Shown here: piece by piece, positions 27,490 to 56,101 of the stretch | Layout of the letters: each line of letters begins with the position of its first letter | How positions within the stretch are numbered: the first letter of the stretch is position 1 | DNA from: Cryobacterium roopkundense | Lineage (GTDB): Bacteria > Actinomycetota > Actinomycetes > Actinomycetales > Microbacteriaceae | Assembly: GCF_014200405.1 (NCBI RefSeq) | Contig: NZ_JACHBQ010000001.1 | Coordinates: 3,410,001-3,474,000, forward strand | DNA: 64,000 bases | Direction of reading: 5' to 3' | Notes under the pieces: model-generated | Told to the model about the DNA's origin: nothing | Databases searched by the model: none | The model's input: only the letters and a program-made list of their open reading frames with translations | Program-made: the position numbers and the translations under genes

Positions 27490-28161
27490 ATGTATGAACT
27501 GACGAACGTGACCAAGAAGTACGACCAGGGAAAGCGCAGCGTCACCGCGCTCAACGACGTCACCCTCGCCATCCCCGACGGCCAGATGGTGGCGATCCAG
27601 GGCCCGACCGGCGGGGGCAAGTCCACCCTGCTGCAGATGCTCGGCGCCCTCGACCGCCCCACCCGTGGCACGGTGACACTCGGCAGCTCCAATCTCTCTC
27701 GCCTCGGTGACGGGCCACTCGGCACGATCCGCGCGACAGAAATCGGGTTCGTGTTCCAGGGCTTCAATCTGATTCCCACGCTCACCGCCCAAGAGAATGT
27801 GGAGACCGCGCTCGCCCCGCTCGGGCTTCCGTCCGCGCAGCGCAAGGAGCGCGCGGTCGCGGCACTGGCCTCGGTTGGTCTCGGCGAACGCCTCACACAC
27901 CTGCCGGCCGAACTTTCCGGTGGGCAGCAGCAGCGCGTGGCGATCGCCCGAGCGATCGTGAAGGAACCGGCCGTGCTGCTCGCCGACGAGCCCACCGGAA
28001 ACCTGGATGAGGATACCCGGGATGAGATCATGGATCTGCTCGAAGGTCTGTGGCGCGACCGCGGGTTGACGCTTATCGTGGTGACGCACGACACTGCCGT
28101 CGCCAACCGCGCCCAGCGTCGGCTGCACATCGCGAAGGGAATCCTCAGCGAGGTCGCGTAG
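27490..28161 (+). CDS. MacB/LolD-type ABC transporter ATPase
   Basis: 223-aa ATPase with AGGAGAAACC before the ATG. Motifs are complete: Walker A GPTGGGKST, Q-loop VFQGFNL, signature LSGGQQQRVAIARAI, Walker B VLLADEPTGNLD and the H-loop in VVTHD. It energises the FtsX-like permease encoded upstream. After its stop, a 130-bp gap carries tandem GC-rich repeats before the convergent lipoprotein gene. Confidence 0.93.
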   Translation: MYELTNVTKKYDQGKRSVTALNDVTLAIPDGQMVAIQGPTGGGKSTLLQMLGALDRPTRGTVTLGSSNLSRLGDGPLGTIRATEIGFVFQGFNLIPTLTAQENVETALAPLGLPSAQRKERAVAALASVGLGERLTHLPAELSGGQQQRVAIARAIVKEPAVLLADEPTGNLDEDTRDEIMDLLEGLWRDRGLTLIVVTHDTAVANRAQRRLHIAKGILSEVA

Positions 28162-41658: not shown

Positions 41659-43146
41659 ATGGTCACTTCCGGCACCGTCACCCTGCCCCCGCTCATCGAA
41701 GAGAAGTCAGAGCTCGATGCGCTTACCCTCGGGCGACGCATCCGCGAGCTGCGCACGGAGAAGCGAATGACCCTCGACACTCTGGCCGCCGCCATCGACC
41801 GCGCACCGTCGCAGCTGTCGATGATCGAGAACGGCAAGCGCGAACCACGCCTCTCGATGCTGCGCACCATTGCGGTCGCCCTCGACACCACGGTCGACGA
41901 GCTCTTGAAAACGGATGCCCCTTCCGAGCGTGCCGCCCTGGAGATTTCGGTCGAGCGCGCCCAACGAGGTCCGGTCTTCGAAGCCCTCGGGCTGCCCCGC
42001 ATCCGAGTGTCCAAGGGACAGAGCGACGAAACGCTGCAGACCATCCTGAGCCTGCACAACGAAATTGACCGCCTGCACCGCGAGCGGGCTGCTACCCCTG
42101 AACAGGCTCGACGAGCGAATGCGGAGCTGCGCGCGATCATGCGCCAGCAGGACAACTACTTTCCCGAACTCGAGGCGCTCGCCCTCGAACTGCTCGGGGC
42201 GGTCGGTCATTCCGGCGGCCCGGTCTCGCAGCAGGTTGTCGCGGACATGGCCACGCATCTCGGATATTCACTGCACTATGTGAACGACCTGCCGCATTCC
42301 ACCCGTTCGGTGACCGACAAGCTCAACGGACGCATCTACCTGCCGACCGAACGGTCGGCCTCCAGAGACTCCCGCCCGCCCATCCTGCAGGCTTTTGCGA
42401 GCCACCTGTGCGGGCACGATGAACCGAAAAATTACGCGGATTTTCTGCGACAGCGGGTGGAGACGAACTACCTCACCGCGGCCATCCTGCTGCCGGAACG
42501 TGATGCCGTGCGCCTCCTCACTGAGGCGAAGACCCTGCGCCGCATCTCGATGGAAGACCTGCGCGACGCGTTCTCGGTGTCGTACGAAACCGCGGCTCAT
42601 CGCTTCACGAATCTCGCCACGGCGCGACTCGACATTCCGGTGCACTTCATGAAGGTGCACGAGTCGGGCACGATCATCAAAGCCTACGAAAACGACTCGG
42701 TGCGGTTTCCGAGCGATGCCCTCGGTGCGGTCGAGGGCGCCACAGTCTGCCGCACGTGGACGGCCCGAACCGTGTTCGACGTGGCCGACCGGTTCAGCGC
42801 CTTCTACCAGTACACCGACATGCAGGCGGGAACGTTTTGGTGCACCTCCCGCATCGAGAAGGCCAAGGAGGGCGAGTATTCGGTGAGCGTGGGGGTCCCC
42901 TTCAACGAGGTCAAGTGGTTCCGTGGCCGCGAAACGCCGCACCGCTCTGTGTCGAAGTGTCCCGACGAGTCCTGCTGCCGCATGCCCCCGAGCAACCTGG
43001 CCGACCGTTGGGCGGCCAACTCCTGGCCGGCCGCGCGCACGCCCACCAGCCTGCTCGCGGCGCTGCCCACCGGCACGTTCCCCGGCGTCGACCAGACCGA
43101 GGTCTACCAGTTCCTCGAGAACCACTCCCCCAAAGTCCCTGCGTAG
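41659..43146 (+). CDS. ramB: RamB-like XRE regulator of acetate/fatty-acid metabolism
   Basis: 495 aa. An XRE-type HTH at about residues 25-82 (LGRRIRELRTEKRMTLDTLA, SQLSMIENGKREPRLSML) is followed by an IrrE/DUF955-like central domain (QAFASHLCGHDEPKNYADF, LTAAILLPERDAVRLL) and a C-terminal DUF2083-like domain with Cys-containing SKCPDESCCRMPPSNLADRW. This layout is that of RamB, the repressor of aceA/aceB in Corynebacterium. It is divergent from aceB with 153 bp between them, containing an AT-rich segment near 41625-41645 only loosely like a RamB box. Confidence 0.85.
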   Translation: MVTSGTVTLPPLIEEKSELDALTLGRRIRELRTEKRMTLDTLAAAIDRAPSQLSMIENGKREPRLSMLRTIAVALDTTVDELLKTDAPSERAALEISVERAQRGPVFEALGLPRIRVSKGQSDETLQTILSLHNEIDRLHRERAATPEQARRANAELRAIMRQQDNYFPELEALALELLGAVGHSGGPVSQQVVADMATHLGYSLHYVNDLPHSTRSVTDKLNGRIYLPTERSASRDSRPPILQAFASHLCGHDEPKNYADFLRQRVETNYLTAAILLPERDAVRLLTEAKTLRRISMEDLRDAFSVSYETAAHRFTNLATARLDIPVHFMKVHESGTIIKAYENDSVRFPSDALGAVEGATVCRTWTARTVFDVADRFSAFYQYTDMQAGTFWCTSRIEKAKEGEYSVSVGVPFNEVKWFRGRETPHRSVSKCPDESCCRMPPSNLADRWAANSWPAARTPTSLLAALPTGTFPGVDQTEVYQFLENHSPKVPA

Positions 43147-43160
43147 CCACAACCCACCCT

Positions 43161-43257
43161 CCGCAAAACCGGTGATTCTCCAGAAACGCCGTTCGCGACG
43201 CCTTGGGTCACCCCGGCTACCCCACACGGCCTGTCGCGAAAAGCACCGGTTTTGCGG
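43161..43257. repeat. Nested inverted repeat at convergent junction
   Basis: Outer arms 43161-43174 (CCGCAAAACCGGTG) and 43244-43257 are perfect 14-bp complements. Inner arms TTCGCGAC (43192-43199) and GTCGCGAA (43233-43240) nest inside. It occupies the 133-bp gap between the convergent ramB-like and transglutaminase genes. A bidirectional transcription barrier is likely; no T-tract is present. Confidence 0.65.
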
Positions 43258-43279
43258 GAGAGCAACGTGGTCCGGGGCA

Positions 43280-44125
43280 TCAGCGCTCTCGGGTGATCTC
43301 CACAGTGACGAAGAGCTGGGAGCCGAACGGGCCAGCGTAGACCCCGCGCAGGGGAGCAACGTCGTTGTAGTCGCGGCCGCGCCCCACGGCGACATGCCGG
43401 TCACCGATATCGATGGAGTTGGTGGGGTCGAATCCGCGCCACTGCCCGCAGAACCACTCGACCCAGGCGTGGGACTCGCCCACGACAGTCTCCCCGATCT
43501 CGGCATCCGGTTTCGGGTGCAGGTACCCCGACACGTAGCGCGCCGGAATCCCGACAGAGCGCAGCGCCCCGAGCGCAATGTGGGTGATGTCCTGGCATAC
43601 TCCGCGGCCGTCGACCCAAGCTTCCCTCGCGGTGGAATGCACACCGGTGACTCCGTGCATGTATTGCATGTGGTCTCCGATGGCCTCACAGATTTCGAGG
43701 GCGGCTTCGGTCGGGCTGAGGTGCAGGGCGGCGATCTCCGCAGCCAGGCGTTCCACCTCCGGGGCCGGCTCCGTGAGCAGGGTCTGCCAGGTGTGCTCGA
43801 TAGACGCCGTCGATGCCGCGGACACGGCCCCCAGCTCGGGCCACAGCACAGCGTCACTCGGATGCGGAACCGGATGCACCTCCACGAGGCTCACGGCCGT
43901 GAGCGAGAGCTCCCGGTGAGGCGTCAGCACCTCGAACGACGAGACCTTGGTTCCCCAGTAGTCCAAATACCCGTGCTGACCGGAGACCGGGGAAATGTCC
44001 AAGTGGGAGAAGAGCACAAACTGGTCACTTGAACTCACGGGGAGCATGCGGGCTTCGTTGTACGACGCCCCGACTTCCCCTTCGTATCGGTAGCCCGTGA
44101 CGTGGCGGATACGCAGCCGGTTCAT
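43280..44125 (-). CDS. Transglutaminase-like protein
   Basis: 281 aa. The N-terminal beta-rich region RIRHVTGYRYEGEVGASYNEARM is typical of bacterial transglutaminase-family proteins. The catalytic triad appears complete: Cys in GRGVCQDITHIAL, His in GESHAWVEWF, Asp in GFDPTNSIDIGDRHV. The ATG overlaps the alpha-E gene stop (ATGA). It is the third gene of the conserved set circularly permuted ATP-grasp, alpha-E, transglutaminase, which is thought to make and process a peptide or amide product; the product is unknown. Confidence 0.92.
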   Translation of the reverse strand: MNRLRIRHVTGYRYEGEVGASYNEARMLPVSSSDQFVLFSHLDISPVSGQHGYLDYWGTKVSSFEVLTPHRELSLTAVSLVEVHPVPHPSDAVLWPELGAVSAASTASIEHTWQTLLTEPAPEVERLAAEIAALHLSPTEAALEICEAIGDHMQYMHGVTGVHSTAREAWVDGRGVCQDITHIALGALRSVGIPARYVSGYLHPKPDAEIGETVVGESHAWVEWFCGQWRGFDPTNSIDIGDRHVAVGRGRDYNDVAPLRGVYAGPFGSQLFVTVEITRER

Positions 44126-45051
44126 GAGGCCTCCCCTGTCCAGCTCTGCGAGGCATGCGTGGGAAAGTAGCGGTCCCCAATGGCTTCCGCCGCGGTGCTC
44201 GTGGCCCGTTGCACGATGGCCATCTGCCCGGGCAGGTCGCTCAGCACCTCTTTGATGGGCTTGTATTCCAGCTGACTGCGGATGCGGCCCAGCAGCCGCA
44301 GCGACCGGTCGGAGACGCCGACCCGGTCCAGGCGCGGTTCCATTTCCCGGAGGCAACGCTCGGCCTGCGTGATGGAGTACACGACGGAACGAGGAAACAG
44401 CCGGTCCAGGAGCAGGTATTCCGCCGCGTTCTGAGCCGACGAGACCCCTCGATAGGTGCGCAAATAAGATTCATAGGCGCCGCACGAGCGCAGGATCGTG
44501 GTCCAGGACGGCGCGCTCGCCTGGGTGAGCGATCGAGTCGCCAGGAGCCTCGACGTCATGTTGGCCTGCTCAAGGCTGCGGCCGAGAGTGAAGAACAGCC
44601 AGGCTTCGTCCCGGCTGGCGCTGGACTCCACAATTCCCACGGCGAGCGCGGCCCGTTCACGCACCCAGGCGAAGTAGTCGTGTGTCTTTTCGCTCGCGAT
44701 CTTGCGCGGCATCCGGGTATGTGTGGCGTTGAGACACTCCCATAGTTCCGTCGACACAATTTCGCGGGCTCGGCGAGCGTTTTCTCTAGCCGCGCCCAGG
44801 GAGTAGGCAATTGATCCCGCGTGCGCCCGATCGAGGGCCAGGGTGGCAAGCACGTCTGCACGGGTCAGCGACCGGCCCTTCGGCGCGTCATGACCCATCA
44901 GCTGGAGCAAAGATCGGCAAGCGGTGTTTTCATCGATCCACGGGTCTTCGAGCAGCAGCTGAAGGTGTACGTCGAGGATGCGCGCGGTGCCGTCGCTGCG
45001 CTCGATGTAGCGTCCGATCCAAAACAGGCTCTCTGCAATGCGACTGAGCAT
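44122..45051 (-). CDS. Alpha-E domain protein (DUF403)
   Basis: 309-aa all-helical alpha-E protein. It begins MLSRIAESLFWIGRYIERSDGTARILDVHL, the strongly conserved family start, and later has ENARRAREIVSTELWECLN and FFTLGRSLEQANMTSRLL. The biochemical role is unknown; it is nearly always encoded beside a circularly permuted ATP-grasp protein. It overlaps both neighbours (1 bp with the ATP-grasp stop, 4 bp with the transglutaminase start), so the three are coupled. Confidence 0.93.
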   Translation of the reverse strand: MLSRIAESLFWIGRYIERSDGTARILDVHLQLLLEDPWIDENTACRSLLQLMGHDAPKGRSLTRADVLATLALDRAHAGSIAYSLGAARENARRAREIVSTELWECLNATHTRMPRKIASEKTHDYFAWVRERAALAVGIVESSASRDEAWLFFTLGRSLEQANMTSRLLATRSLTQASAPSWTTILRSCGAYESYLRTYRGVSSAQNAAEYLLLDRLFPRSVVYSITQAERCLREMEPRLDRVGVSDRSLRLLGRIRSQLEYKPIKEVLSDLPGQMAIVQRATSTAAEAIGDRYFPTHASQSWTGEAS

Positions 45052-46781
45052 TACGCTGTCCCCTCCACTGACCCTTGTTGTTGCATCTGCGGCTGCCCGG
45101 TGGTGGCCAGTGGCGCCTGGGCGGGCGGCTGGTCCACCGGCACATGGTCGACCGGTGCCCGAATGATCGGGATCGACTGTGTGGTTGCGGCCTGTTCAGC
45201 CACGAGTTCGGGGATACCCCTCCCGGCCACTGCCACGAAGTCGCGAGCCGCGCCGAGCACCCACGTATCTTTGGATCCTCCGCCTTGGCTGGAGTTGACC
45301 ACGAGTTCACCCTCCGGCAGCGCAACGCGCGTGAGGCCGCCCGGAAGCACCCACACGTCAGTGCCGTCATTCACGGCGAAGGGCCGGAGGTCGGCGTGAC
45401 GCGGCCGTAGTCCCTCTTCGACCAGGGTGGGAATCGTCGACAGCTGAACGACCGGCTGCGCGATCCACCCGCGCGGATCTCTGATGAGCTGGCCACGCAG
45501 CGCGTCCAGCTCAGTCCGGGAAGCAGCGGGGCCCACGACGAGCCCTTTGCCGCCGGAACCGTCAACGGGCTTGATCACGAGCTCGTCGAGACGGTCGAGC
45601 ACCTCCTCGAGCGCGCCCGGATCTTCCAGGCGCCAGGTGTCGACATTGGGGATGATCGGGTCTTCACCGAGGTAGTACCGGATCAGGTCCGGCAGGTACG
45701 TATAGACCAGCTTGTCGTCTGCCACACCATTTCCCACGGCGTTGGCGATCGTCACGTTGCCGAGTCGCGCGGCCATCATGATTCCCGGCGATCCGAGCTC
45801 GGAATCAGCTCGGAACTGCAGTGGGTCGAGGAACTCGTCGTCGACGCGCCGGTAGATCACGTCTACCCTGGTGGGGCCCGCCGTCGTGCGCATCCACACG
45901 TGTCCGCCGGAGCAGAAGAGGTCGCGGCCTTCCACGAGCTCAACGCCCATCAGCCGAGCCAGCAGCGTATGTTCGAAATACGCCGAGTTGTAGATTCCCG
46001 GTGTCAGCACCACGATCGTCGGATCGCCGCCACACGCCGGAGCCGCCGCCCGCAGTGCCTGCAGGAGCTTGCCCGGGTAGTCGCCCACGGGCCGGGTAGA
46101 CATGGACGAAAAAAGTTCCGGCAGCGTCTGGGCCATCACCCGGCGGTTCGAGATCACGTAGCTCACGCCACTGGGCACGCGGACGTTGTCTTCGAGCACG
46201 CGCCAGGCGCCCTTCTCATCGCGAATCAGATCAATTCCCGACACCTGGATGCGCACGTTGTTCGCCGACACGATTCCGGCCGCCTGTCGGTGGAAATGCT
46301 TCGACGAGCTGATGAGTCCGGCCGGTATCACCCCATCACGCACGGCCGCCTGTGGGCCGTAGATGTCCTCGAGGAAAGCTTCCAGCGCCAGCACTCGCTG
46401 GGAGATCGCCGATTCAACGGTCACCCACTCGGGCTGCTCGATCACTCGGGGTACGGCGTCGAGCGGGAAGGGGCGCTCTTCACCGGCAAAGTCGAAGGTG
46501 ACCCCCTGGGCGAGATATGACGTGGCCAGGGCGTCCGCACGTCCGCGCAGTTCCTCCTGGGTCATCCTCGCGAGAGCGGCGTACACATCCTTATACGCCG
46601 CTCGGGCTTCACCCCGATCGAGGGACGACGTGTCGGGGAACATTTCATCCCAGGGGCGCGCGGAATCTCGGCGGCTACGGGGGGCAGTTGACCTGCCATA
46701 TCCAGCGAACAGATCGACCATGAGGCGAGCGTAGTGCGCGAGTGTTGCGGCAGTGTTTCGGGCAAAAGGGGGCGTGGACAT
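45051..46781 (-). CDS. Circularly permuted type 2 ATP-grasp protein
   Basis: 576 aa as drawn, of the DUF404/DUF407 type. Conserved blocks are WDEMFPDTSS, FPLDAVPRVI, LEAFLEDIYG, RIQVSGIDLIRDEKGAWRVLEDNVRVPSGVSYVI, VLTPGIYNSAYFEHTLLARLMGVELVEGRDL, LVIKPVDGSGGKGLVVGP and LRPFAVNDG. It probably forms an amide or peptide bond using ATP; substrates are unknown. The start is uncertain: ATG 46781 adds 20 residues over ATG 46721 (MVDLFAGYG), and neither has a clear ribosome site. It is the first gene of the three-gene operon. Confidence 0.9.
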   Translation of the reverse strand: MSTPPFARNTAATLAHYARLMVDLFAGYGRSTAPRSRRDSARPWDEMFPDTSSLDRGEARAAYKDVYAALARMTQEELRGRADALATSYLAQGVTFDFAGEERPFPLDAVPRVIEQPEWVTVESAISQRVLALEAFLEDIYGPQAAVRDGVIPAGLISSSKHFHRQAAGIVSANNVRIQVSGIDLIRDEKGAWRVLEDNVRVPSGVSYVISNRRVMAQTLPELFSSMSTRPVGDYPGKLLQALRAAAPACGGDPTIVVLTPGIYNSAYFEHTLLARLMGVELVEGRDLFCSGGHVWMRTTAGPTRVDVIYRRVDDEFLDPLQFRADSELGSPGIMMAARLGNVTIANAVGNGVADDKLVYTYLPDLIRYYLGEDPIIPNVDTWRLEDPGALEEVLDRLDELVIKPVDGSGGKGLVVGPAASRTELDALRGQLIRDPRGWIAQPVVQLSTIPTLVEEGLRPRHADLRPFAVNDGTDVWVLPGGLTRVALPEGELVVNSSQGGGSKDTWVLGAARDFVAVAGRGIPELVAEQAATTQSIPIIRAPVDHVPVDQPPAQAPLATTGQPQMQQQGSVEGTA

Positions 46782-46977
46782 ACGGTTATTTCACACTTTT
46801 GCACTGTCAACAAACCACTGCCCCCAGTCCGGGGGCCTTTTGTATGCAAAGCTCTTACCTACCGGATCTTTTCTTAGTTAAAAGTGCCGGTTTGCCACAG
46901 AATTGCCAGAGATTGCATACAGTAAATCCGGCCGCCCTGCGACCCGATACACCCGAACGATGAAATGTGAACCGTCC

Positions 46978-47796
46978 ATGACTTCTGCCGTGCCTCGCAG
47001 CAGCCGTACGGATGGAACGTATGCCGTACTTCTCCGTCGGGTGCGCATTCCCGCGGCAGGTGTCGGCGTGTTCACCACCTTGGGTGTCGCGGCGCTCTAT
47101 CTCCTCCCGCTGGGTGACTCCGCCGGCTGGCTCCTGCAGCGGATGCCTCTCACGGCAGGTGTCGCCCTCGCCACGACCATCGTGACGGCCGTCCTGGGTC
47201 TTGGCGTCGCCCCCCTCGCCGCTCACCACGGCCGCACCCTGGATCGCGTCCTGCACGGCGTCGTCCTCGGCGGACAGGTGGTGCCCGCGCTCTGGGTGGG
47301 CCTCGCGCTGTCGACCGTCCTGATGGCCACGCCCGCTGGCGTCTCCACGGTGCGGTACATCCCTGTGATGGAGTCGGCCACCGGATGGCTGGTTTCCTTA
47401 GCCATTCCGGTGGCAGCCCTCACGCTGGGGTCGGCCGCCGCCCTCGCTCGCCAGCTCGCGCAGTCGTCGGCGGTACTGCTGGAGTCCGATCTCGTGCTCA
47501 CCCAGCTCAGTCGGGGGCTACCCGCCGGATACGTCTTTCGTCGACACGTGATGCGGCATGCCCTCCCGGCCGGCGCGAGCCTGCTCGCCCTGCATTTCCT
47601 CGGTCTGTTCGTGAGCATTCTTGCCCTCGATGCCGTCGTCGTGCACGAGCTCGACCCCGCCTCACTCCCGGCGCAGAACCCCGAGCCTTCAATCGCGCTC
47701 ATCGCCGGCGTCTCCGTCATTGTCGTGGCCAGTGTCGTGTACCTCGCACAGCGCGCCCACCTGGGCTTTCTCCGAGCGCGCGGAACAGCGCTGTGA
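46978..47796 (+). CDS. DppB-like ABC transporter permease (short form)
   Basis: 272 aa from ATG 46978 (ATG 46960 is an alternative; no clear ribosome site for either). It has five to six transmembrane helices with the binding-protein-dependent permease core: LTAGVALATTIVTAVLGLGVAPLAAHH, VVLGGQVVPALWVGLALS, and ARQLAQSSAVLLESDLVLTQLSRGLPAGYVFRRHVMRHAL in segments resembling the DppB EAA region. It is shorter than typical DppB proteins (about 310 aa), mainly at the N-terminal extracytoplasmic loop. GTGA overlaps the downstream fused gene. No binding-protein gene is adjacent. Confidence 0.75.
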   Translation: MTSAVPRSSRTDGTYAVLLRRVRIPAAGVGVFTTLGVAALYLLPLGDSAGWLLQRMPLTAGVALATTIVTAVLGLGVAPLAAHHGRTLDRVLHGVVLGGQVVPALWVGLALSTVLMATPAGVSTVRYIPVMESATGWLVSLAIPVAALTLGSAAALARQLAQSSAVLLESDLVLTQLSRGLPAGYVFRRHVMRHALPAGASLLALHFLGLFVSILALDAVVVHELDPASLPAQNPEPSIALIAGVSVIVVASVVYLAQRAHLGFLRARGTAL

Positions 47797-49430
47797 AAGC
47801 CGCCGGGCGCGTGACCGACCTCCTGCTTCGTCGCTCGGCTCGGCATCCGCTCGCTGCTGCCTCCCTTGTCGTTCTCGCCGTACTCACGGCCCCCGCGTTG
47901 GCCGTCTCCTGGATCACGAACGGCATCTGGCCACCCAACGATTTCTCCGACCTGATGCAGGGAGCCCCCGCTTCCCTGCTCATCCCCCTGCTCGGCGTGG
48001 CCGTGTCCGTCGTAGTGGGGACATCCTGCGGGCTGGTCGCAGGCGTGTATGCGGGACACTTCAATTCCCTCGTTGGCTGGGTCGCCTATGTCACGGCGTC
48101 GGTGCCGGCGCTGATCTTTCTTGTCGTTGTGATGGTTGATTCCAGCCGGAGCCTGACCGGGGCCATGGTGATCTTCGGCGCGCTCCTCACGATTCCCTTT
48201 TTCCTGCTCGCCCGCAGCACCGTGGTCTCGGTGGAGCATCGACCCACCGTGCACGCCCTCCGTGCGCAGGGCCTCACCGCCGTGCGCCTGCTGGTTCGCT
48301 CGGTCTTTCCAGCCCTGCGCTATCCGCTTCTTGCACTGGTCCTGATCGAGTCCAGCGTTCTGGTGAGCATTCATGCCCTGCTGACATTTCTGGGGCTGGG
48401 GGGAGAGACCGGCCCATCGTGGGGTGCCCAAGCCAGGGAAGCCCTGCAAAACATGCCCACAACGCCCCCCTACAGTTGGGGGCCGAGCGCGCTCCTGCTG
48501 CTCACTGTGGCCGCGCTGGCCACCTTGGGTCTCTCCATTCTGCGAGCCCAGCGGCTCCTCACGCCGACGGGGTCACCCGTGCGATCAGCCGACGGCGAGG
48601 AACAGTGGCTTCTCGACGAGCCGTTGCCATCGACCTGGTTTCGTTCATCGGCGCTGCTCGACGTGCGCGGTCTGAAGATTCGTTCCGAATCCAATCCGGA
48701 GTCGCCGGAGATCGTGAGCGGCATCTCGCTCACCATTGCCCGCGGCGAGGTGGTGGCTCTGCTCGGCGAAGCCAACTCCGGTGCCCTCGAAATCGCGCTG
48801 GCGATAGCCGGACTTCTCGGACCCCGCACCACTATCTCCGGCGGCTCCATCCTCTTCGACGGCATCGAGGTCGTCGGCATGACAGAACGTTCCCTCTCCC
48901 GACTGCGAGGAACGGGCGTTTCCTATCTCCCGAGCGATCCCCTCTCGAGCCTCGACCCGGCGTTCTCCGTGGCACGTCACCTGCAGGCCCCGCTAACGAA
49001 GACCGTGGGCCTGTCGAGGTCCGGTGCGGCCGCACGTTCCGTCGAACTTCTCGCGCGGGTCGGATTCCGTGATCCGCGTGCCATCCTCGCGCTTCGTCCG
49101 GCTGATCTGACGCCGATCATGGCCGCACGGGTACTGATCGCCGGTGCTATCTCCTGCGATCCTCACCTGGTGATAGCGCACGAGCCCACGTCAACCCTCT
49201 CCGGGGCGGACGAGGCCGACATTCTCCGGCTGCTGCACGGCCTGCAGGAAGAGCGCGGGCTCACGGTCATTGTGGTCACCCACAGGGTTCGGCTGCTGGC
49301 CGCGAGTTGCCGCCAGGTGGCGGTGGTGCAGGCCGGCATGATTGTGGAGCACGCGTCGGTCAGCGACCTTTTTGACGCCCCGCAGCATCCGTATACGCGC
49401 GAGCTTCTGTCTCGCGACGCTAGTCGGTAG
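47793..49430 (+). CDS. DppC-like permease fused to degenerate ABC ATPase domain
   Basis: 545 aa from the GTG at 47793. The N-terminal half is a DppC-like permease (HALRAQGLTAVRLLVRSVFP, LLTFLGLGGETGPSWGA). The C-terminal half is an ABC domain of the DppD class (ISLTIARGEVVALLGE, GISYLPSDPLSSLDPAFSV-like, EHASVSDLFDAPQHPYTREL). All ATPase motifs are altered: Walker A reads GEANSGALE (no Lys), the signature region is LRPADLTPIMAARVLIAGAI instead of LSGGQ..., and Walker B IAHEPTSTL has His for the last Asp. It probably cannot hydrolyse ATP; a structural or regulatory role, or an intact partner ATPase elsewhere, is inferred. Confidence 0.8.
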   Translation: MKAAGRVTDLLLRRSARHPLAAASLVVLAVLTAPALAVSWITNGIWPPNDFSDLMQGAPASLLIPLLGVAVSVVVGTSCGLVAGVYAGHFNSLVGWVAYVTASVPALIFLVVVMVDSSRSLTGAMVIFGALLTIPFFLLARSTVVSVEHRPTVHALRAQGLTAVRLLVRSVFPALRYPLLALVLIESSVLVSIHALLTFLGLGGETGPSWGAQAREALQNMPTTPPYSWGPSALLLLTVAALATLGLSILRAQRLLTPTGSPVRSADGEEQWLLDEPLPSTWFRSSALLDVRGLKIRSESNPESPEIVSGISLTIARGEVVALLGEANSGALEIALAIAGLLGPRTTISGGSILFDGIEVVGMTERSLSRLRGTGVSYLPSDPLSSLDPAFSVARHLQAPLTKTVGLSRSGAAARSVELLARVGFRDPRAILALRPADLTPIMAARVLIAGAISCDPHLVIAHEPTSTLSGADEADILRLLHGLQEERGLTVIVVTHRVRLLAASCRQVAVVQAGMIVEHASVSDLFDAPQHPYTRELLSRDASR

Positions 49431-50118
49431 AAGATTCCGCGACGGGAGTGCCTGACGCTTCAACGCTCTGCGACATCATGTTTCGTGCGGCCAGGATATG
49501 CGAGCGCATGGCGACTTCGGCCCACAGGGCATCCCCCGACGTGAGCGCGCTCACGATATCCCGGTGCTGATGATTGCTGCGTGCTCGGTATTCGGCTCCG
49601 TGGGTGCGAAATCGGCTTTCCATCATCGGCACACGAGACACCGACTCGGTCAGGGCGAGCAACTGGGCGCTGCCCGCCGCCACGACAATCGTTTGATGGA
49701 ATTGGGCGTTGAGCAGCGCGAGCGACGCTATCCCCGCGTCGTCGGTCGCCAGCACGAAATCCTCCATACGCTCGATGAGCAGCTCGAGAAGTTGGAGGTC
49801 CGCCGCCTCGATACGCACCGCCGCTAACCCGGCGGCCCGACTCTCCAACGCCGCTCGCATGAAGTAGGTCTCTCGCATCTGTTCGATCGTCCAGGCGAGC
49901 ACCGTGGCACCGCGGTTGGGCACGAACTCGACCAAGCCCGCCGCATCGAGTCGCCGCAGCGCTTCGCGCACGGGCGTGCGGCTCACCCCGAGTTCCTCGG
50001 CCAAGGCCTGCTCGCGCAGCGTGGCGTGCGCCGGCAGCTCGCCGGACAAGATCCGGGCGCGCAAAGTTTCGAAGGCCGCCTGCCCACCCGTCTGCGGCAC
50101 AGATGACAACTCAATCAC
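49420..50118 (-). CDS. GntR-family (FadR-type) transcriptional regulator
   Basis: 232 aa. The N-terminal winged helix reads ILSGELPAHATLREQALAEELGVSRTPVREALRRLDAAGLVEFVPNRG in segments; the C-terminal FCD all-helical effector domain follows (MRETYFMRAALESRAAGLAA, LLNAQFHQTIVVAAGSAQL, with His residues for metal or effector). Its 3' end overlaps the convergent fused permease gene by 11 bp. It is divergent from the aldehyde dehydrogenase gene at 50376, its most likely target. Confidence 0.88.
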   Translation of the reverse strand: MIELSSVPQTGGQAAFETLRARILSGELPAHATLREQALAEELGVSRTPVREALRRLDAAGLVEFVPNRGATVLAWTIEQMRETYFMRAALESRAAGLAAVRIEAADLQLLELLIERMEDFVLATDDAGIASLALLNAQFHQTIVVAAGSAQLLALTESVSRVPMMESRFRTHGAEYRARSNHQHRDIVSALTSGDALWAEVAMRSHILAARNMMSQSVEASGTPVAESSTD

Positions 50119-50375
50119 TACTCGCAGCCCCCTAGTGCACTGACACTGGCCGGGTCAGCTCCCGGCTCAGATGATTAATTCTGCCACATCGAACGATTTC
50201 CCCTAAGGGGGTAGACAAACAGTACATATTTGTGCTTCGAATAGGACACGGCGTCCTCGGCCGCAGCGTCGCCGTGGGGTATCGTCGCCCTAGGGCCAAT
50301 TAACCCGAGGCGACAGGGCAGTCACCATAGCGATGCCCCCGCGCGCCGTCTGTACATCCTCGTGAAAGGACCGCC

Positions 50376-51809
50376 ATGGCCATCCGTGAACTCCACAACT
50401 TCGTGAACGGCGACTACGCGGAATCCACCGCGACCGAACGACTGGACATCGTCAACCCGGCCACAGAGGTCGTCTACGCCACGAGTCCCATTTCCACAGA
50501 GGCGGATGTCGCTGCCGCCTACTCCACAGCGTCCTCCGCCTTCGAAACGTGGGGCGACACGACTCCCGGCGAACGCCAGAACGCGCTCCTCAAGTTTGCG
50601 GACGCCATCGAGGAGCGCTCGGAGGAACTCGCCGACATCGAGAGCGAGAACACCGGCAAGCCCCGCCCAGGCCTCGTCGGCGAGGAGGTCGACATGATGC
50701 TCGACCAGCTGCGATTCTTCGCGGGTGCGGCTCGCATGCTCGAGGGCAAGTCCGCTGGCGAATACATGAAGGACCACACCTCATTCGTGCGCCGCGAGCC
50801 CATCGGAGTCGTCGGCCAGGTCACGCCCTGGAACTACCCCATGATGATGGCGATGTGGAAGATCGCCCCGGCCCTCGCCGCGGGAAACACCATCGTGCTC
50901 AAGCCCTCCGACACCACCCCCGTCTCCACCCTCCTGCTCGCCGAGATCGCCGCAGAGTTCCTCCCGGCCGGCACGTTCAACGTCGTGCTCGGCGACCGGC
51001 ACACCGGCCGCCACCTCGTCACCAACCGCACGCCACAACTCGTCTCGATCACCGGCTCCGTGCGCGCCGGCATGGAGGTGGCCGGCGCCGCCGCCCTCGA
51101 TCTCAAGCGCGTGCACCTCGAACTCGGCGGCAAGGCGCCCGCCATCGTCTTCAACGACGCTGACATCGCATCCGCTGTCGAAGGCATCGTGGGCGCGGCC
51201 TTCTACAACGGCGGGCAGGACTGCACCGCAGCCACTCGCATCCTTGTGCAGGAGGGCATCCACGACGAGTTCATGGCCGCCCTCGCCGCGTATGCCAAGG
51301 AGAACGCCCGCACCGGAGCACCCCTCGACGAGGGCATCCTCTACGGCGCCCTCTCGAGCGCCGACCAGCTCGCCCGCGTGCACAGCGTCGTCGAGAACCT
51401 CCCCGACCACGCCACGATTGAGCTCGGCGGCAACCGCCAGGGCAGCGTCGGCTACTTCCACGAGGCCACGATCGTCTCGAACCTGCTGCAGACGGATGAC
51501 GCGGTGCAGAACGAGATCTTCGGCCCTGTCATCACCGCCCAAAAGTTCACCGACGAGGCGCAGGCCCTCGCCTGGGCGAACGACGTGCAGTACGGCCTCG
51601 CATCATCCGTTTGGACTTCGAACCACGGAACAGCGATGCGCATGGCCAAGAACCTCGACTTCGGGTGCGTCTGGATCAACACGCACATCCCGCTCGTTGC
51701 CGAGATGCCGCACGGCGGGTTCAAGCACTCCGGCTACGGCAAGGACCTCTCGATGTACGGCATGGAGGACTACACCCGCATCAAGCACGTCATGAGCTAC
51801 ATCGGCTAA
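50376..51809 (+). CDS. Aldehyde dehydrogenase, gamma-aminobutyraldehyde type
   Basis: 477-aa NAD(P)-dependent aldehyde dehydrogenase (AGGA before the ATG). Features are VTPWNYPMMMAMWKIAPALAAGNTIVLKPSDTTP in segments, the general base Glu in HLELGGKAPAIV, the catalytic Cys in NGGQDCTAATRI and IFGPVITAQKF. The N-terminus ELHNFVNGDY and RFFAGAARMLEGKSAGEY resemble gamma-aminobutyraldehyde dehydrogenases of putrescine breakdown; close relatives act on betaine aldehyde or succinate semialdehyde. A GntR regulator gene is divergent, and a dispersed repeat and terminator follow. Confidence 0.88.
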   Translation: MAIRELHNFVNGDYAESTATERLDIVNPATEVVYATSPISTEADVAAAYSTASSAFETWGDTTPGERQNALLKFADAIEERSEELADIESENTGKPRPGLVGEEVDMMLDQLRFFAGAARMLEGKSAGEYMKDHTSFVRREPIGVVGQVTPWNYPMMMAMWKIAPALAAGNTIVLKPSDTTPVSTLLLAEIAAEFLPAGTFNVVLGDRHTGRHLVTNRTPQLVSITGSVRAGMEVAGAAALDLKRVHLELGGKAPAIVFNDADIASAVEGIVGAAFYNGGQDCTAATRILVQEGIHDEFMAALAAYAKENARTGAPLDEGILYGALSSADQLARVHSVVENLPDHATIELGGNRQGSVGYFHEATIVSNLLQTDDAVQNEIFGPVITAQKFTDEAQALAWANDVQYGLASSVWTSNHGTAMRMAKNLDFGCVWINTHIPLVAEMPHGGFKHSGYGKDLSMYGMEDYTRIKHVMSYIG

Positions 51810-51825
51810 CGACCCGACCGCCGCC

Positions 51826-51927
51826 GGTCGAGGCGCGACGAAGGAGCGATCGAGACCCCGCGACCCCGCACTCGGGTGTGAGGAACCTGTCGCCAGGCCT
51901 CGATCGCTCGTGCCTCGCGCCTCGACC
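51826..51927. repeat. Dispersed repeat pair in inverted orientation
   Basis: Unit 51826-51857 (GGTCGAGGCGCGACGAAGGA...) and unit 51896-51927 are inverted copies with 28 of 32 bases identical. They enclose 38 bp and can form a large hairpin. Thirty-one bases of the first unit match 28219-28249 exactly in reverse orientation. It lies between the convergent dehydrogenase and rplA genes. Confidence 0.8.
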
Positions 51928-51940
51928 AGCGGACACAGAG

Positions 51941-51971
51941 AAGGGCCCGTCCGAAGACGGGCCCTTCTTTT
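51941..51971. terminator. Bidirectional intrinsic terminator
   Basis: Perfect 11-bp stem AAGGGCCCGTC/GACGGGCCCTT with a CGAA loop, followed by CTTTT on the plus strand and flanked by A/G-rich sequence on the other side. It can serve the aldehyde dehydrogenase gene (plus) and rplA (minus). Confidence 0.85.
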
Positions 51972-51985
51972 GATCTAATTCAAAA

Positions 51986-52675
51986 TTAGATGGCGTTCAC
52001 ATCGAGCTGGATGCCAGGTCCGAAGGTGGTCGAGACGACACCCTTCGTGATGTAGCGGCCCTTGGAAGAGCTCGGCTTGAGGCGAACAACCTCTTCGAGG
52101 GCGGTGGCGATGTTCTCGTTGAGCTGCTCAACGGAGAAGGATGCCTTGCCCACGACGAAGTGCACGTTGGCGTGCTTGTCAACGCGGAACTCGATCTTTC
52201 CACCCTTGATGTCGTTGACGGCCTTCGCGACGTCGGGCGTCACGGTGCCGGTCTTCGGGTTCGGCATGAGGCCACGCGGGCCGAGTACCTTTCCGAGGCG
52301 TCCGACCTTACCCATGAGCTCCGGGGTCGAAACCGCGGAGTCGAAGGAGGTGTAACCGGCGGCCACCTTCTCGATGAGCTCGTCGCCACCAACCTCGTCG
52401 GCGCCGGCAGCGATAGCTGCCTCGGCGGCCGGGCCGGTTGCGAAGACGATGACGCGTGAGGTGCGTCCGGTGCCGTGAGGAAGAATCACGGTACCGCGAA
52501 CCATCTGGTCTGCCTTGCGGGGGTCCACTCCGAGGCGCAGGGCGACCTCAACTGTGGAGTTGAACTTGGACGAGCCGGTCTCCTTGGCGAGAGCGACGGC
52601 TGCGGCCGGGGTGTAAAACGTGTCGGCGCCGATTTTCTCGGCAGAGGCGCGGTAGGCCTTTGACTTAGTTGCCAT
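51986..52675 (-). CDS. rplA: 50S ribosomal protein L1
   Basis: 229 aa from ATG 52673-52675 (GGAGATTTCAC upstream). Conserved L1 blocks are [33 protein letters not shown] in segments, [30 protein letters not shown] in segments, and the C-terminal [11 protein letters not shown]. It binds 23S rRNA at the L1 stalk and in many bacteria represses the rplK-rplA operon by binding its leader. It is the last gene of the secE-nusG-rplK-rplA cluster. Confidence 0.98.
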
Positions 52676-52767
52676 GTGAAATCTCCTGTGTACAAATATC
52701 GAGAGTGTGGTGCGAGCCTGGCTGGGCTCTTCCACGTCATGCTGAGGGGTGCGTGAGCTGGTGAGGC

Positions 52768-53199
52768 TTAGGCCTCGACCGTGATGCCCATGGAACGGGC
52801 GGTGCCGGCAATGATCTTCGACGCGGCGTCGAGGTCGTTGGCGTTGAGGTCTGCCATCTTCGTCTCGGCGATTTCGCGGACCTGTGCCTGTGTGAGCTTG
52901 GCAACCTTGACGGTGTGGGGGGTTCCGCTGCCCTTGGCAACGCCGGCAGCCTTCTTGATGAGCTCCGCCGCGGGCGGGGTCTTCAGGATGAACGTGAATG
53001 AGCGGTCGTCGTACACGGTGATCTCAACCGGGATGACGTTTCCGCGCTGGGCTTCCGTCGCAGCGTTGTATGCCTTGCAGAACTCCATGATGTTCACGCC
53101 GTGCTGGCCCAGTGCCGGCCCGATGGGCGGTGCGGGGTTGGCGGCGCCGGCCTTGATCTGAAGCTTGATCAGACCTGTTACCTTCTTCTTCGGTGCCAT
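52768..53199 (-). CDS. rplK: 50S ribosomal protein L11
   Basis: 143 aa, beginning [20 protein letters not shown]. It has [25 protein letters not shown] motif (here [14 protein letters not shown]) and the C-terminal rRNA-binding domain ending [18 protein letters not shown]. It forms the GTPase-associated centre with 23S rRNA. It lies between nusG and rplA in the conserved order; the 89-bp gap to nusG contains a small GGCCC/GGGCC hairpin. Confidence 0.98.
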
Positions 53200-53288
53200 T
53201 GTTCTTCCTTCTTTGTAAGTTTCGAGCCGCCCCGAAGGGTTGCTCTCCCGGTGGCCCGGACGGGCCCCGGTGGTTGGGGGATGCGCTG

Positions 53289-54245
53289 TTAGAGCTTGGT
53301 GACTTGGTCGAAGCTGAGCTCGACCGGTGTCTCACGCTCGAACAGCGACACGAGCACGATGAGCTTTCCGCTCTCCGGCTTGATCTCGCTGATCGATCCG
53401 GGCAGGCCCGCGAAGGAGCCTTCCTTGATGGTGATCGTTTCGCCGATTTCGTAGTCGACCTCGGCGGCGATGACGCGCTGGGCAGACTTGCCGCCGTGTG
53501 CGCCACCCTTGGCGGTAGGCGCCTCGACGATTTCGACGAGGCCCTTCAGCATGCCGAAGGCCTCCTCGAAGCGAAGCGGCGTGGGGTTGTGGGCGTTGCC
53601 CACGAAGCCCGTGACACCGGGAGTGTGGCGAACCACCGACCAGCTGTCTTCGTCGAGGTCCATGCGAACGAGCACGTATCCGGGGATGCGTACGCGAGTG
53701 ACCATCTTGCGCTGGCCATTCTTGATCTCCACGACATCTTCCATCGGAACCTCGACCTGGTAGATGAAATCTTCCATGGCCATCGACTGCTTGCGGTTCT
53801 CGATGTTCGACTTCACGCGGCGCTCGAAGCCGGCGTAGGAGTGGATGACGTACCACTTACCCGGCAGAAAGCGCAGTTCCTTGCGGAAAGCGTCGTAGGG
53901 GTCTACGTCGACATCTTCAGCGGCGGCCTCTTCGTTGACGAGCGATTCTTCGTCTTCGACGGCTTCCACCGAAGCATCCGCTTCCTCAGCGGAATCGATG
54001 TCCAGGGCGTCGTCGACGATGGAGTCGGCCTCGGGATCCGCGGACTCGGCCAGTGCGTCGAGGGCGGCGTCGAGGTTGACCTCAATGTCGTCGTTCTCGT
54101 CGATGACGTGCAGGGCGGCGTGCTCGGCGGCCTCGACCGAACGCTCTTCGGCGGCCAGGGTGTTGCCCTCCTGTGCCTCGTCGTCCTCAGCGGACTGCTC
54201 GGCGGCAGTGGCCCAGTCGACATCGTCGTGTTTCGTCTCAGTCAC
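53289..54245 (-). CDS. nusG: Transcription termination/antitermination factor NusG with acidic extension
   Basis: 318 aa. The NGN domain starts at about residue 128 ([19 protein letters not shown]) and includes [25 protein letters not shown] in segments; the KOW domain at the end has [22 protein letters not shown] and the ending FDQVTKL. The first 125 residues are a very acidic, Ala/Glu/Asp-rich low-complexity extension absent from E. coli NusG but common in high-GC actinobacteria. It couples RNA polymerase with Rho or ribosomes. It lies between secE and rplK. Confidence 0.96.
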
Positions 54246-54324
54246 TAGATCTCAATCCTTCTCATGTGGTGCTCAATCTTCGGCAGAAAAACTACCGGTA
54301 CGGCGAATGCGCGTGGGCGAGGTG

Positions 54325-54594
54325 TTACGGCGTTCCGAACATGTAGGTCACGGCCAGCGCGAACACCCAGTCGAATGCGGAAACAATGGCCATCATGATC
54401 ACAACGAACACAAGCACGACTCCGGTGTAGCTCAGCAGCTCCTTGCGGGTCGGTGTGACGACCTTACGGAGTTCGGCAATGACCTGCCGGAAGAACAGGG
54501 ACAACCGAGCGAAAGGACCGCGTTTGGACTCGCGGGCCATTCTTGCGTTCGCGACGACTTCCTCACCGGGTTCGTCGATAACTTTTCGGGCCAC
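54325..54594 (-). CDS. secE: Preprotein translocase subunit SecE
   Basis: 89 aa from the GTG at 54592-54594, preceded by AAAGG. A charged N-terminus of about 28 residues is followed by the SecE amphipathic region LFFRQVIAELRKVVTPTRKELL and a single transmembrane helix (YTGVVLVFVVIMMAIVSAFDW). It clamps SecY in the Sec translocon. It is followed by nusG at 79 bp and preceded by tRNA-Trp, the usual actinobacterial arrangement. Confidence 0.96.
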   Translation of the reverse strand: MARKVIDEPGEEVVANARMARESKRGPFARLSLFFRQVIAELRKVVTPTRKELLSYTGVVLVFVVIMMAIVSAFDWVFALAVTYMFGTP

Positions 54595-54636
54595 CTGTTA
54601 CACCTTTCATGGGCCGATGGAGTTACCACCGACTTG

Positions 54637-54709
54637 CAGGGCGGACAGGACTCGAACCTGCAACCTGCGGTTTTGGAGACCGCTGCTCTACCAATTGAGC
54701 CACCACCCT
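54637..54709 (-). tRNA. trnW: tRNA-Trp (CCA)
   Basis: 73 nt on the minus strand. The acceptor stem AGGGTGG/CCGCCCT (one G-U pair), D-loop GCTCAATTGGTAGAGC, anticodon arm GCGGT-CTCCAAA-ACCGC with anticodon CCA, T-arm with GGTTCGAGTCC, and discriminator G are all present. No CCA is encoded. It is located directly upstream of secE, as in many actinobacteria. Confidence 0.97.
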
Positions 54710-54898
54710 ATGGAGCGAACCACACCCGCTTCACAACACCAGAAATAGGCGCAGAAAAGCATGGCAGAGTTCAACTACCTCGATCAAGTCTAGGGCACGC
54801 AGGGCCGGGTGTAAAGCTGGGGCCACCCCGGGCGGGTTCGCCCAGATTCGCACCCCAACTTCCGGCCGAGGAATGCCCTCTCCCCGTATGCTCGTAGC

Positions 54899-56101
54899 GT
54901 GGCACACGAACTCAAGCGAATTTCCACTCGGATCGGCTCCATTGCAGAGTCGGCGACCCTCAAGGTTGACGGAAAGGCCAAGGCCCTGCAGGCGGCCGGG
55001 CGACCGGTGATCAGTTTCGCGGCCGGAGAGCCGGACTTCCAGACGCCGGCACACATCGTGGAGGCGGCCCTGGCGGCCGTACACGACCCGAAGAACTACC
55101 GGTACACGCCGGCGGCCGGACTGCCGGAATTGCGCGAGGCGATCGCCGCCAAGACGCTGCGCGACAGCGGTCTCGCCGTCTCCGCCAGTCAGGTCGTCGT
55201 CACGAACGGGGGCAAGCAGGCGGTCTACCAGGCCTTCGCCACGCTGCTCGATCCGGACGACGAGGTTCTCGTGCCCACCCCGTACTGGACCACGTACCCC
55301 GAAGCGATCCGCCTGGCCGGCGGCGTGCCCGTCAACGTGTTCGCCGGCAGCGACCAGGGCTACCTAGTGACGGTTGAGCAGCTCGAAGCCGCCCGAACGC
55401 CCCGCAGCAAGGTTCTGCTCTTTGTCTCCCCCTCCAACCCCACCGGCGCTGTCTATTCGCCCGAGCAGACCCGCGCCATCGGCGAGTGGGCCGAGGAACA
55501 CGGCCTCTGGGTGATCTCCGACGAGATCTACCAGAACCTCACCTACGACGCAGCGCGCGCGGTCTCGATCGTCGAGGCCGTTCCGGCACTGGCCGACCGC
55601 ACCATCCTCGTGAACGGCGTGGCCAAGACCTACGCCATGACCGGTTGGCGCTTGGGCTGGATGGTCGGGCCGCAGGACGCCATCAAGGCGGCGGCCAACC
55701 TGCAATCGCACCTGTCATCCAACGTGTCGAATATTTCGCAGCGCGCGGGCATCGCGGCCCTCAACGGACCCCAGGAGGCCGTGCAGGAGATGCACGATGC
55801 CTTCGACCGGCGCCGCAAGCTCATCGTCTCCGAGCTCAACAAGATTCCGGGCGTCATCACGCCCACGCCGAAGGGTGCGTTCTACGTGTACCCCGACGTG
55901 ACCGGCCTGCTCGGCCGTTCCTGGGGCGGTGTCACCCCCACGACATCGCTCGAGCTCGCCGACCTCATCCTCGACCAGGTCGAAGTAGCCGCGGTGCCCG
56001 GAGAAGCCTTCGGTCCGAGCGGGTTCCTGCGCCTCTCTTACGCGCTCGGCGATGCCGCTCTTCTCGAGGGCGTACAGCGCCTCCAGCGCCTCTTCGCCTA
56101 G
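54899..56101 (+). CDS. aspC: Aspartate aminotransferase (class I/II PLP)
   Basis: 400 aa from GTG 54899. There is no ribosome site, but a TATGCT element 6 bases upstream fits a leaderless transcript. Features are [74 protein letters not shown] and the PLP lysine in [18 protein letters not shown]; the C-terminal Arg lies in GFLRLSYAL. It resembles the AspB/AatA subgroup (aspartate or prephenate aminotransferase). It is divergent from the tRNA-Trp/secE unit. Confidence 0.92.

Follow-up and report, generated by a model that had tools for sequence, protein, structure and literature searches.

An ABC-fold pseudo-ATPase of the DppD/OppD kind in most Cryobacterium genomes, probably independent of transport

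ATP-binding cassette (ABC) domains are among the commonest protein machines, with the ATP motifs taken as their defining feature. Degenerate ABC sites within transporters are well described, and yeast Pdr5 has one nucleotide site altered in all four motifs (PMC7756269). We describe here an ABC domain encoded in a 64,000-nucleotide stretch of the Cryobacterium roopkundense genome (contig NZ_JACHBQ010000001.1, positions 3,410,001 to 3,474,000; hereafter the window), which recurs across the genus and which we call pseudo-ABC. All the syntenic copies that we examined have lost catalytic motifs, the domain is under selection, the copies form a single clade, and most of them have a reduced membrane part or none. 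Judged from sequence comparison, pseudo-ABC is probably a non-ATPase protein of the ABC fold that acts independently of transport, most likely as an adaptor or regulator that binds another protein and is itself controlled by GntR.

The closest described proteins are DppD and OppD (E. coli OppBCDF, 8z21, and DppBCDF, 8z1v; Mycobacterium tuberculosis DppABCD and OppABCD), which pseudo-ABC resembles in fold and HPY-type C-terminus and which are the nearest solved structures to the window domain; in trees, the nearest group is that of intact permease-ATPase fusions of Microbacteriaceae. Unlike DppD and OppD, the window copy keeps, of the ATP-site residues, only the Walker B Glu and the H-loop His, no F-type partner is recognised at the locus, and the membrane part is missing in most species. 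In TAP, CFTR, ABCG5/G8 and yeast Pdr5, as in pseudo-ABC, evolution has retained the loss of Walker A or B, signature or H-loop residues; there, however, the degenerate site belongs to a whole transporter and stands beside a second, active site, whereas no active partner of pseudo-ABC is recognised at its locus and many copies are soluble. PhnK of C-P lyase, which is among the fold matches, is likewise an ABC domain outside a transporter, but its entries include, by their titles, states with ATP, ADP+Pi and adenylyl imidodiphosphate (AMPPNP), while the pseudo-ABC copies are without the residues for ATP use. A literature search conducted largely outside subscription journals found no account of a comparable soluble pseudo-ATPase ABC family. 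The copies form a natural series, one domain at one chromosomal place throughout a genus with catalytic residues lost under continued selection, which permits a direct test of what the ABC fold can do without ATP. Automatic annotation would hide the window copy, because a profile search of it returns only transporter-ATPase and permease families.

Motif loss in the window copy and across the genus

A DppC-like permease and a DppD/OppD-type ABC domain are fused in a single frame of 545 amino acids on the plus strand, as an earlier note on this DNA had read it. Pfam matches BPD_transp_1 to residues 78-258 and ABC_tran to residues 309-467, the latter match (PF00005, E 5.2e-10) placing the domain in the ABC family; NikD/DppD profile models also match the domain, with scores well under their cut-offs. 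The GTG start of the fusion overlaps the stop of an upstream DppB-like open reading frame (ORF) by four bases (GTGA). This short DppB-like partner, also remarked on before, has 297 codons if read from TTG 46903, 278 from ATG 46960 and 272 from ATG 46978. One of the two ATG codons is the likely start, because of the position of operator 2, upstream of both, and because the KCEP-M region is common to relatives. The features of the locus are as follows.

46840..46849, plus strand: operator 1, TTGTATGCAA, near-palindromic TTGYATRCAA; candidate site, from conservation across genomes
46913..46922, plus strand: operator 2, TTGCATACAG, 73 bp from operator 1; candidate site, from conservation
46903..47796, plus strand: DppB-like permease ORF (PERM1), BPD_transp_1 E 3.4e-13
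47793..49430, plus strand: fusion of PERM2 and nucleotide-binding domain (PERM2-NBD), with the DppC-like permease at residues 1-262 and the pseudo-ATPase ABC domain at residues 276-545
48627..48674, plus strand: N-terminal strand PSTWFRSSALLDVRGL, a newly conserved hallmark by entropy comparison
48765..48791, plus strand: degenerate Walker A GEANSGALE, residues 325-333
48837..48878, plus strand: SGGSILFDGIEVVG strand/hairpin, residues 349-362, newly conserved by entropy comparison
48933..48935, plus strand: Q-loop position, Ser381 replacing Gln
49104..49130, plus strand: degenerate signature DLTPIMAAR, residues 438-446
49167..49187, plus strand: degenerate Walker B LVIAHEP, residues 459-465, Glu464 kept
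49281..49283, plus strand: H-loop His497, kept only in the window copy among the 45 syntenic copies with this region
49420..50118, minus strand: GntR/FCD-family regulator, convergent, overlapping the fusion end by 11 bp (PF00392 and PF07729)

In the Walker A of the window copy, A331 stands for Lys; the Q-loop reads YLPSDP, with S381 for Gln; DLTPIM takes the place of an LSGGQ-type signature; and in Walker B the Asp is replaced by H463. Intact relatives have an A-loop Tyr, which the window copy has lost as well. The claim that all ATPase motifs are lost thus holds for the A-loop Tyr, the Walker A Lys, the Q-loop Gln, the signature and the Walker B Asp, but not for Glu464 and His497, which remain.

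To place this copy, 57 genomes of the genus (given by G numbers) were searched, and the region between a RamB-like regulator gene and the rplA/rplK/nusG/secE genes was compared. The ABC domain lies at the same place in 46 of the 57, four of the copies being shortened (G003, G040, G048 and G051). No ABC domain was found at the locus in G012, G013, G021, G022, G024, G025, G052 and G054, and three genomes fell outside the assessment (G042, where the contig ends, and G043 and G055, where the locus was not found). One match in G025, at 26%, is an intact ABC protein that is unrelated, and it was not counted. The reading of the earlier note would have been refuted by orthologues whose Walker motifs are intact, but the Walker A Lys is present in none of the 46 syntenic copies, its position being taken by Ala (34), Thr (nine) or Arg (three). 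The signature SGG is absent from all 42 syntenic copies that retain the region, and the Walker B region, read in 45 copies, keeps its Glu in nine, five of which have Asp-Glu. At E<=1e-62 the family search had matches in 160 of 398 genomes, and the motifs of 25 loci were read: 24 are intact and the 25th is a Cryobacterium pseudo-copy. Because the reading covered these 25 loci, other genera may also have degenerate copies.

Three genomes, G002, G008 and G016, carry pseudo-ABC copies at a second locus (L075:7866-8687, L121:7827-8648 and L124:7444-8250, respectively). In these copies Met replaces the Walker A Lys and there is no in-frame membrane part.

Selection, descent and displaced constraint

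We fitted a pairwise codon model (F3x4, kappa, and omega, the ratio of nonsynonymous to synonymous rates) to 22 pairs, of which 19 had synonymous divergence (dS) below 1; dS of the ABC domain was saturated in window/G032, window/G023 and G023/G046, which were not counted. In the 19 usable pairs, omega of the domain was 0.066-0.254, with twice the log-likelihood difference from omega=1 at 14-128, and omega=1 was rejected in every one. The value near 1 expected of a pseudogene was not seen, and these tests reject neutral decay as the whole story. RamB, compared in 18 of these pairs, had an omega of 0.002-0.048; the ABC-domain protein is thus constrained, though less than its neighbours. Shortened copies gave omega of 0.08-0.26 in five pairs, two of them with dS above 2. 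The earlier argument that an open frame excludes random decay was therefore right in its conclusion, by the codon test, while its ground is weak evidence here, because an opposite-strand ORF of 408 codons at 47223-48449, overlapping the fusion region, is open as well. Purifying selection, which the earlier note had wished to see checked on orthologues, and the absence of the Walker A Lys from all 46 copies together support the non-transporting nature suggested there.

The descent of the copies was examined in two trees. The main tree had 58 rows with the motif columns removed, comprising 45 pseudo-ABC rows (42 syntenic and three second-locus) and 13 intact permease-ATPase fusions; the shortened G003, G040, G048 and G051, the G025 protein, F-type ATPases and all but six of the family-search rows were left out. 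All 45 pseudo-ABC rows formed a single clade against the 13 intact fusions (support 100/99). This tree carries a warning that two long branches meet, one leading to the G002 group and one to the second-locus copies, and the join between them is unsure. The second tree, with 15 pseudo-ABC rows and nine paralogues from the window genome, again gave one pseudo-ABC clade (100/100), which grouped with the intact permease-ATPase fusions (100/99) and not with the three transporters from other genera that are linked to GntR. Descent from those transporters is accordingly unsupported.

The membrane part has three arrangements. Both permeases are recognised only in the window and in G023; G032 and 11 others have a single six-transmembrane (6TM) unit fused to the ABC domain; and hydropathy shows no in-frame membrane segment in 28 of the 42 full-length syntenic copies, one of which, G046, retains a permease in a different frame. 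Absence of a tblastn match was not taken as loss, because in 10 of 11 genomes of the 6TM-fusion clade the part derived from a permease escaped tblastn with the window permeases and was seen only by hydropathy; loss was judged from in-frame hydropathy and from the space left by operators or neighbours. The operators lie 106-148 bp from the start of the ABC domain in ten soluble copies, as against 906-1074 bp in ten 6TM fusions, and in an operator-less clade of 17 soluble copies, 303-421 bp separate the RamB gene from the domain in 15; these short gaps leave no room for a permease. The state "ABC alone" requires three changes on the tree, two of them forced by well-supported branches, and since the intact relatives have a permease, we take these changes to be losses.

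Constraint has shifted within the pseudo-ABC domain: away from the motifs of catalysis and dimer formation, and towards the N-terminal strand, the C-terminal tail and the SGSILFDG hairpin. We scored 13 regions by entropy relative to the mean of each group, comparing three pseudo-ABC subclades with intact relatives. The N-terminal strand scored 0.25, 0.53 and 0.29 in the subclades versus 1.36 in intact relatives, and the hairpin 0.37, 0.50 and 0.66 versus 1.87; both are among the slowest regions in the subclades and are the two fastest of the 13 in the relatives. By contrast, the signature scored 1.45, 1.07 and 1.42 (0.21 in intact relatives) and the D-loop 1.17, 1.17 and 1.93 (0.03), while the Walker A stretch was mixed, at 0.74, 1.48 and 0.76 (0.11). 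The rank correlation of per-site entropy between four pseudo-ABC subclades and intact relatives was rho 0.03-0.24, compared with 0.64 between intact F-type (seven rows) and D-type domains. A pattern for the N-terminal strand matches 43 of 49 pseudo-ABC copies (46 syntenic and three second-locus) and none of 14 intact paralogues; one for the hairpin matches 44 of the 49 and one of the 14.

The full-length AlphaFold model was weak in the permease half (predicted local distance difference test mostly <50, from a four-sequence alignment), and only its ABC domain was used. Foldseek gave E. coli OppD and DppD as the best matches in the PDB, in agreement with the DppD-type fold noticed earlier. Strands 287-298 and 346-355 of the model cover parts of both conserved patches. 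Strands so placed in ABC domains are part of the beta-subdomain, and the two patches may form a partner-binding surface.

The operator-like pair and the GntR regulator

Upstream of the window operon stand the two candidate sites listed above. Two matches in the window are unremarkable by themselves, being found in 44 of 100 shuffles, and the case for operators therefore rests on conservation. At least one TTGYATRCAA-like site is present upstream in 27 of the 28 genomes where the ABC domain and the GntR gene occur together, versus none of the 18 that have the domain without GntR; the sites are thus linked to the GntR/FCD regulator gene. None was found in the eight genomes without the domain, among which G013 and G021 have GntR. 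Both sites occur in 25 of the 28, at a spacing of 73-77 bp in 24 and of 65 bp in G009, with variable sequence between them. A genome-wide search for exact octamer pairs in two arrangements, which did not extend to sites facing away from each other, found them in 11 and 13 genomes (24 of 57), only at the pseudo-ABC locus, and the reversed-pattern controls gave 0. The inverted arrangement occurs in one of 398 family genomes, the window's own. The convergent GntR protein is the probable regulator of the pair.

Nine of the 398 family genomes have relatives of this GntR at E<=1e-45. Three of the nine (G177, G326 and G389) are from other genera, and in these the relative lies near intact Dpp-type permease and ATPase genes. 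Near-operator pairs also stand near these three, 52 bp apart in G177 (twice) and 63 bp apart in G326 and G389; sites with <=1 mismatch number 4, 2 and 2 per 16 kb versus 0.2 in shuffles. Because the spacings of 52, 63 and ~74 bp differ by about one helical turn, they suggest that GntR may occupy both sites simultaneously.

In G177 the GntR relative lies between its two pairs (L173:4377-4438 and L173:15784-15845, each 52 bp apart). One pair precedes the gene of an aldehyde dehydrogenase and a divergent one whose product resembles a short-chain dehydrogenase; the other is at the start of an ORF that, by eye, probably resembles a binding-protein lipoprotein, upstream of the intact Dpp-type genes. 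An acyl-CoA dehydrogenase gene, whose product we presume to resemble glutaryl-CoA dehydrogenase, adjoins GntR in 15 loci (L069, L077, L118, L119, L120, L122, L123, L130, L131, L134, L136, L137, L140, L147 and L152). A class III CoA-transferase is found in most of these by Pfam, and GntR18, Cache-domain and amino-acid permease genes are often present; the neighbours possibly make up a glutarate or polyamine catabolic locus.

Competing explanations and neighbouring genes

On balance, we lean towards a former importer ATPase that was kept for a new role needing no ATP and, in most species, no membrane. A more specific proposal, which we make with somewhat less assurance than would carry an even wager, is a new class of bacterial ABC-fold proteins without need of ATP or a transporter: soluble or membrane-tethered adaptors or regulators that would bind a partner through the beta-subdomain and be governed by their own GntR on a helically phased operator pair. 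An ancestor of Cryobacterium would have had an ABC importer of the peptide type, with its ATPase fused to a permease, and this importer lost ATP binding and hydrolysis; the ATPase domain would then have been retained for its new role, and the membrane part reduced or shed in most species. GntR would bind the operator pair, perhaps at both sites together, and switch the gene in response to a metabolite, and the protein, folded like DppD and OppD, would act on a partner through its beta-subdomain face.

Several observations weigh against this account. The domain evolves fast, with omega several to many times that of RamB. In eight of the 54 genomes that could be assessed it was not found at the locus, and four genomes have a shortened copy, that of G003 with a stop within the aligned stretch as well. 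The replacement of the Walker A Lys varies by lineage, as expected with relaxed constraint at the site, and one subclade (G007, G010, G027, G030 and G039) retains the P-loop glycines and Walker B Asp-Glu. The transmembrane part of the 6TM fusions, itself under constraint, also evolves fast, with omega of 0.18-0.37 (seven pairs, eight of 11 species). The new constraint common to the pseudo-ABC subclades is moderate (rho 0.17-0.38), and the strand and hairpin patterns were composed after the alignment had been viewed. Of the two genomes in which both permeases remain, one (G023) lacks the operator pair; elsewhere, G038 and G040 show a single exact site. What ties GntR to the pair is co-occurrence, and the partner proposed for pseudo-ABC is hypothetical.

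The fast evolution, the missing and shortened copies, the varied Lys replacements and the absence of permease parts from most copies would also fit a slowly decaying relic, one that ceased to function at the base of the genus and whose remainder is weakly constrained or heading to loss. We regard this as unlikely, since omega stays far from 1 in all usable ABC-domain pairs and low even in the shortened copies and transmembrane parts, new positions are strongly conserved, and operators are kept in 27 of 28 genomes with GntR. Somewhat less likely still is a subunit of a working transporter powered by an intact DppF-type ATPase encoded elsewhere. Both permeases do remain in the window species and G023, 11 further species have a 6TM-ABC fusion whose membrane part is under purifying selection in the seven pairs (eight species) compared, the genome has 87 ABC-ATPase matches (the window copy included, and counted by match), and Pdr5 functions with one site altered in all four motifs (PMC7756269). 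However, the ORFs at 42000-55000, eight of which were scanned with Pfam, gave no recognisable F-type ATPase or binding protein, the next ABC-ATPase match in the window is ~19 kb off, at 27517-28140, and the locus does not hold the gene set of a Dpp/Opp importer, in which a binding protein and ATPases of both D and F type are encoded together with two permeases. By the geometry of the ABC dimer, the lost signature would also spoil the site of a partner, and the permease-docking Q-loop (0.75-1.72 of mean entropy) and the stretch after it (1.03-1.36) are not specially conserved. With 28 of 42 full-length copies devoid of an in-frame membrane segment, the transporter driven by another ATPase that the earlier note had entertained is disfavoured.

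We consider it improbable that the protein is a nucleotide or metabolite sensor that binds a ligand without hydrolysis, a sensor being among the roles raised in the earlier note. One set of aligned copies retains SGA and the conserved Glu after it, the Walker A stretch is below average in variability in two of three subclades (0.74 and 0.76), and five copies keep the Walker B Asp-Glu; against this, the stretch is 1.48 times as variable as average in the 6TM-fusion clade, and the window copy has neither the A-loop Tyr nor the Walker A Lys nor the Walker B Asp. Nor do we give much credence, indeed marginally less, to a decoy ATPase subunit that docks on the permeases of other peptide importers and blocks them: the fold is retained and a soluble clade of 17 species keeps PxxxL after the Q-loop, like intact relatives, but the post-Q-loop region is average or above in variability in the three subclades (1.36, 1.17 and 1.03).

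Immediately before operator 1 lies a GC-rich hairpin (46820-46836), terminator-like on both strands. Divergent from the pseudo-ABC operon, on the minus strand at 43280-46781, is a cluster of genes of circularly permuted ATP-grasp, Alpha-E and transglutaminase-like types; its ATP-grasp and transglutaminase genes occupy the same place in many, though not all, Cryobacterium genomes. On the other side, the aldehyde dehydrogenase gene near rplA (window 50376-51809) comes in two types, 34-35% identical in two pairs, which substitute for each other at the same place between Cryobacterium species.

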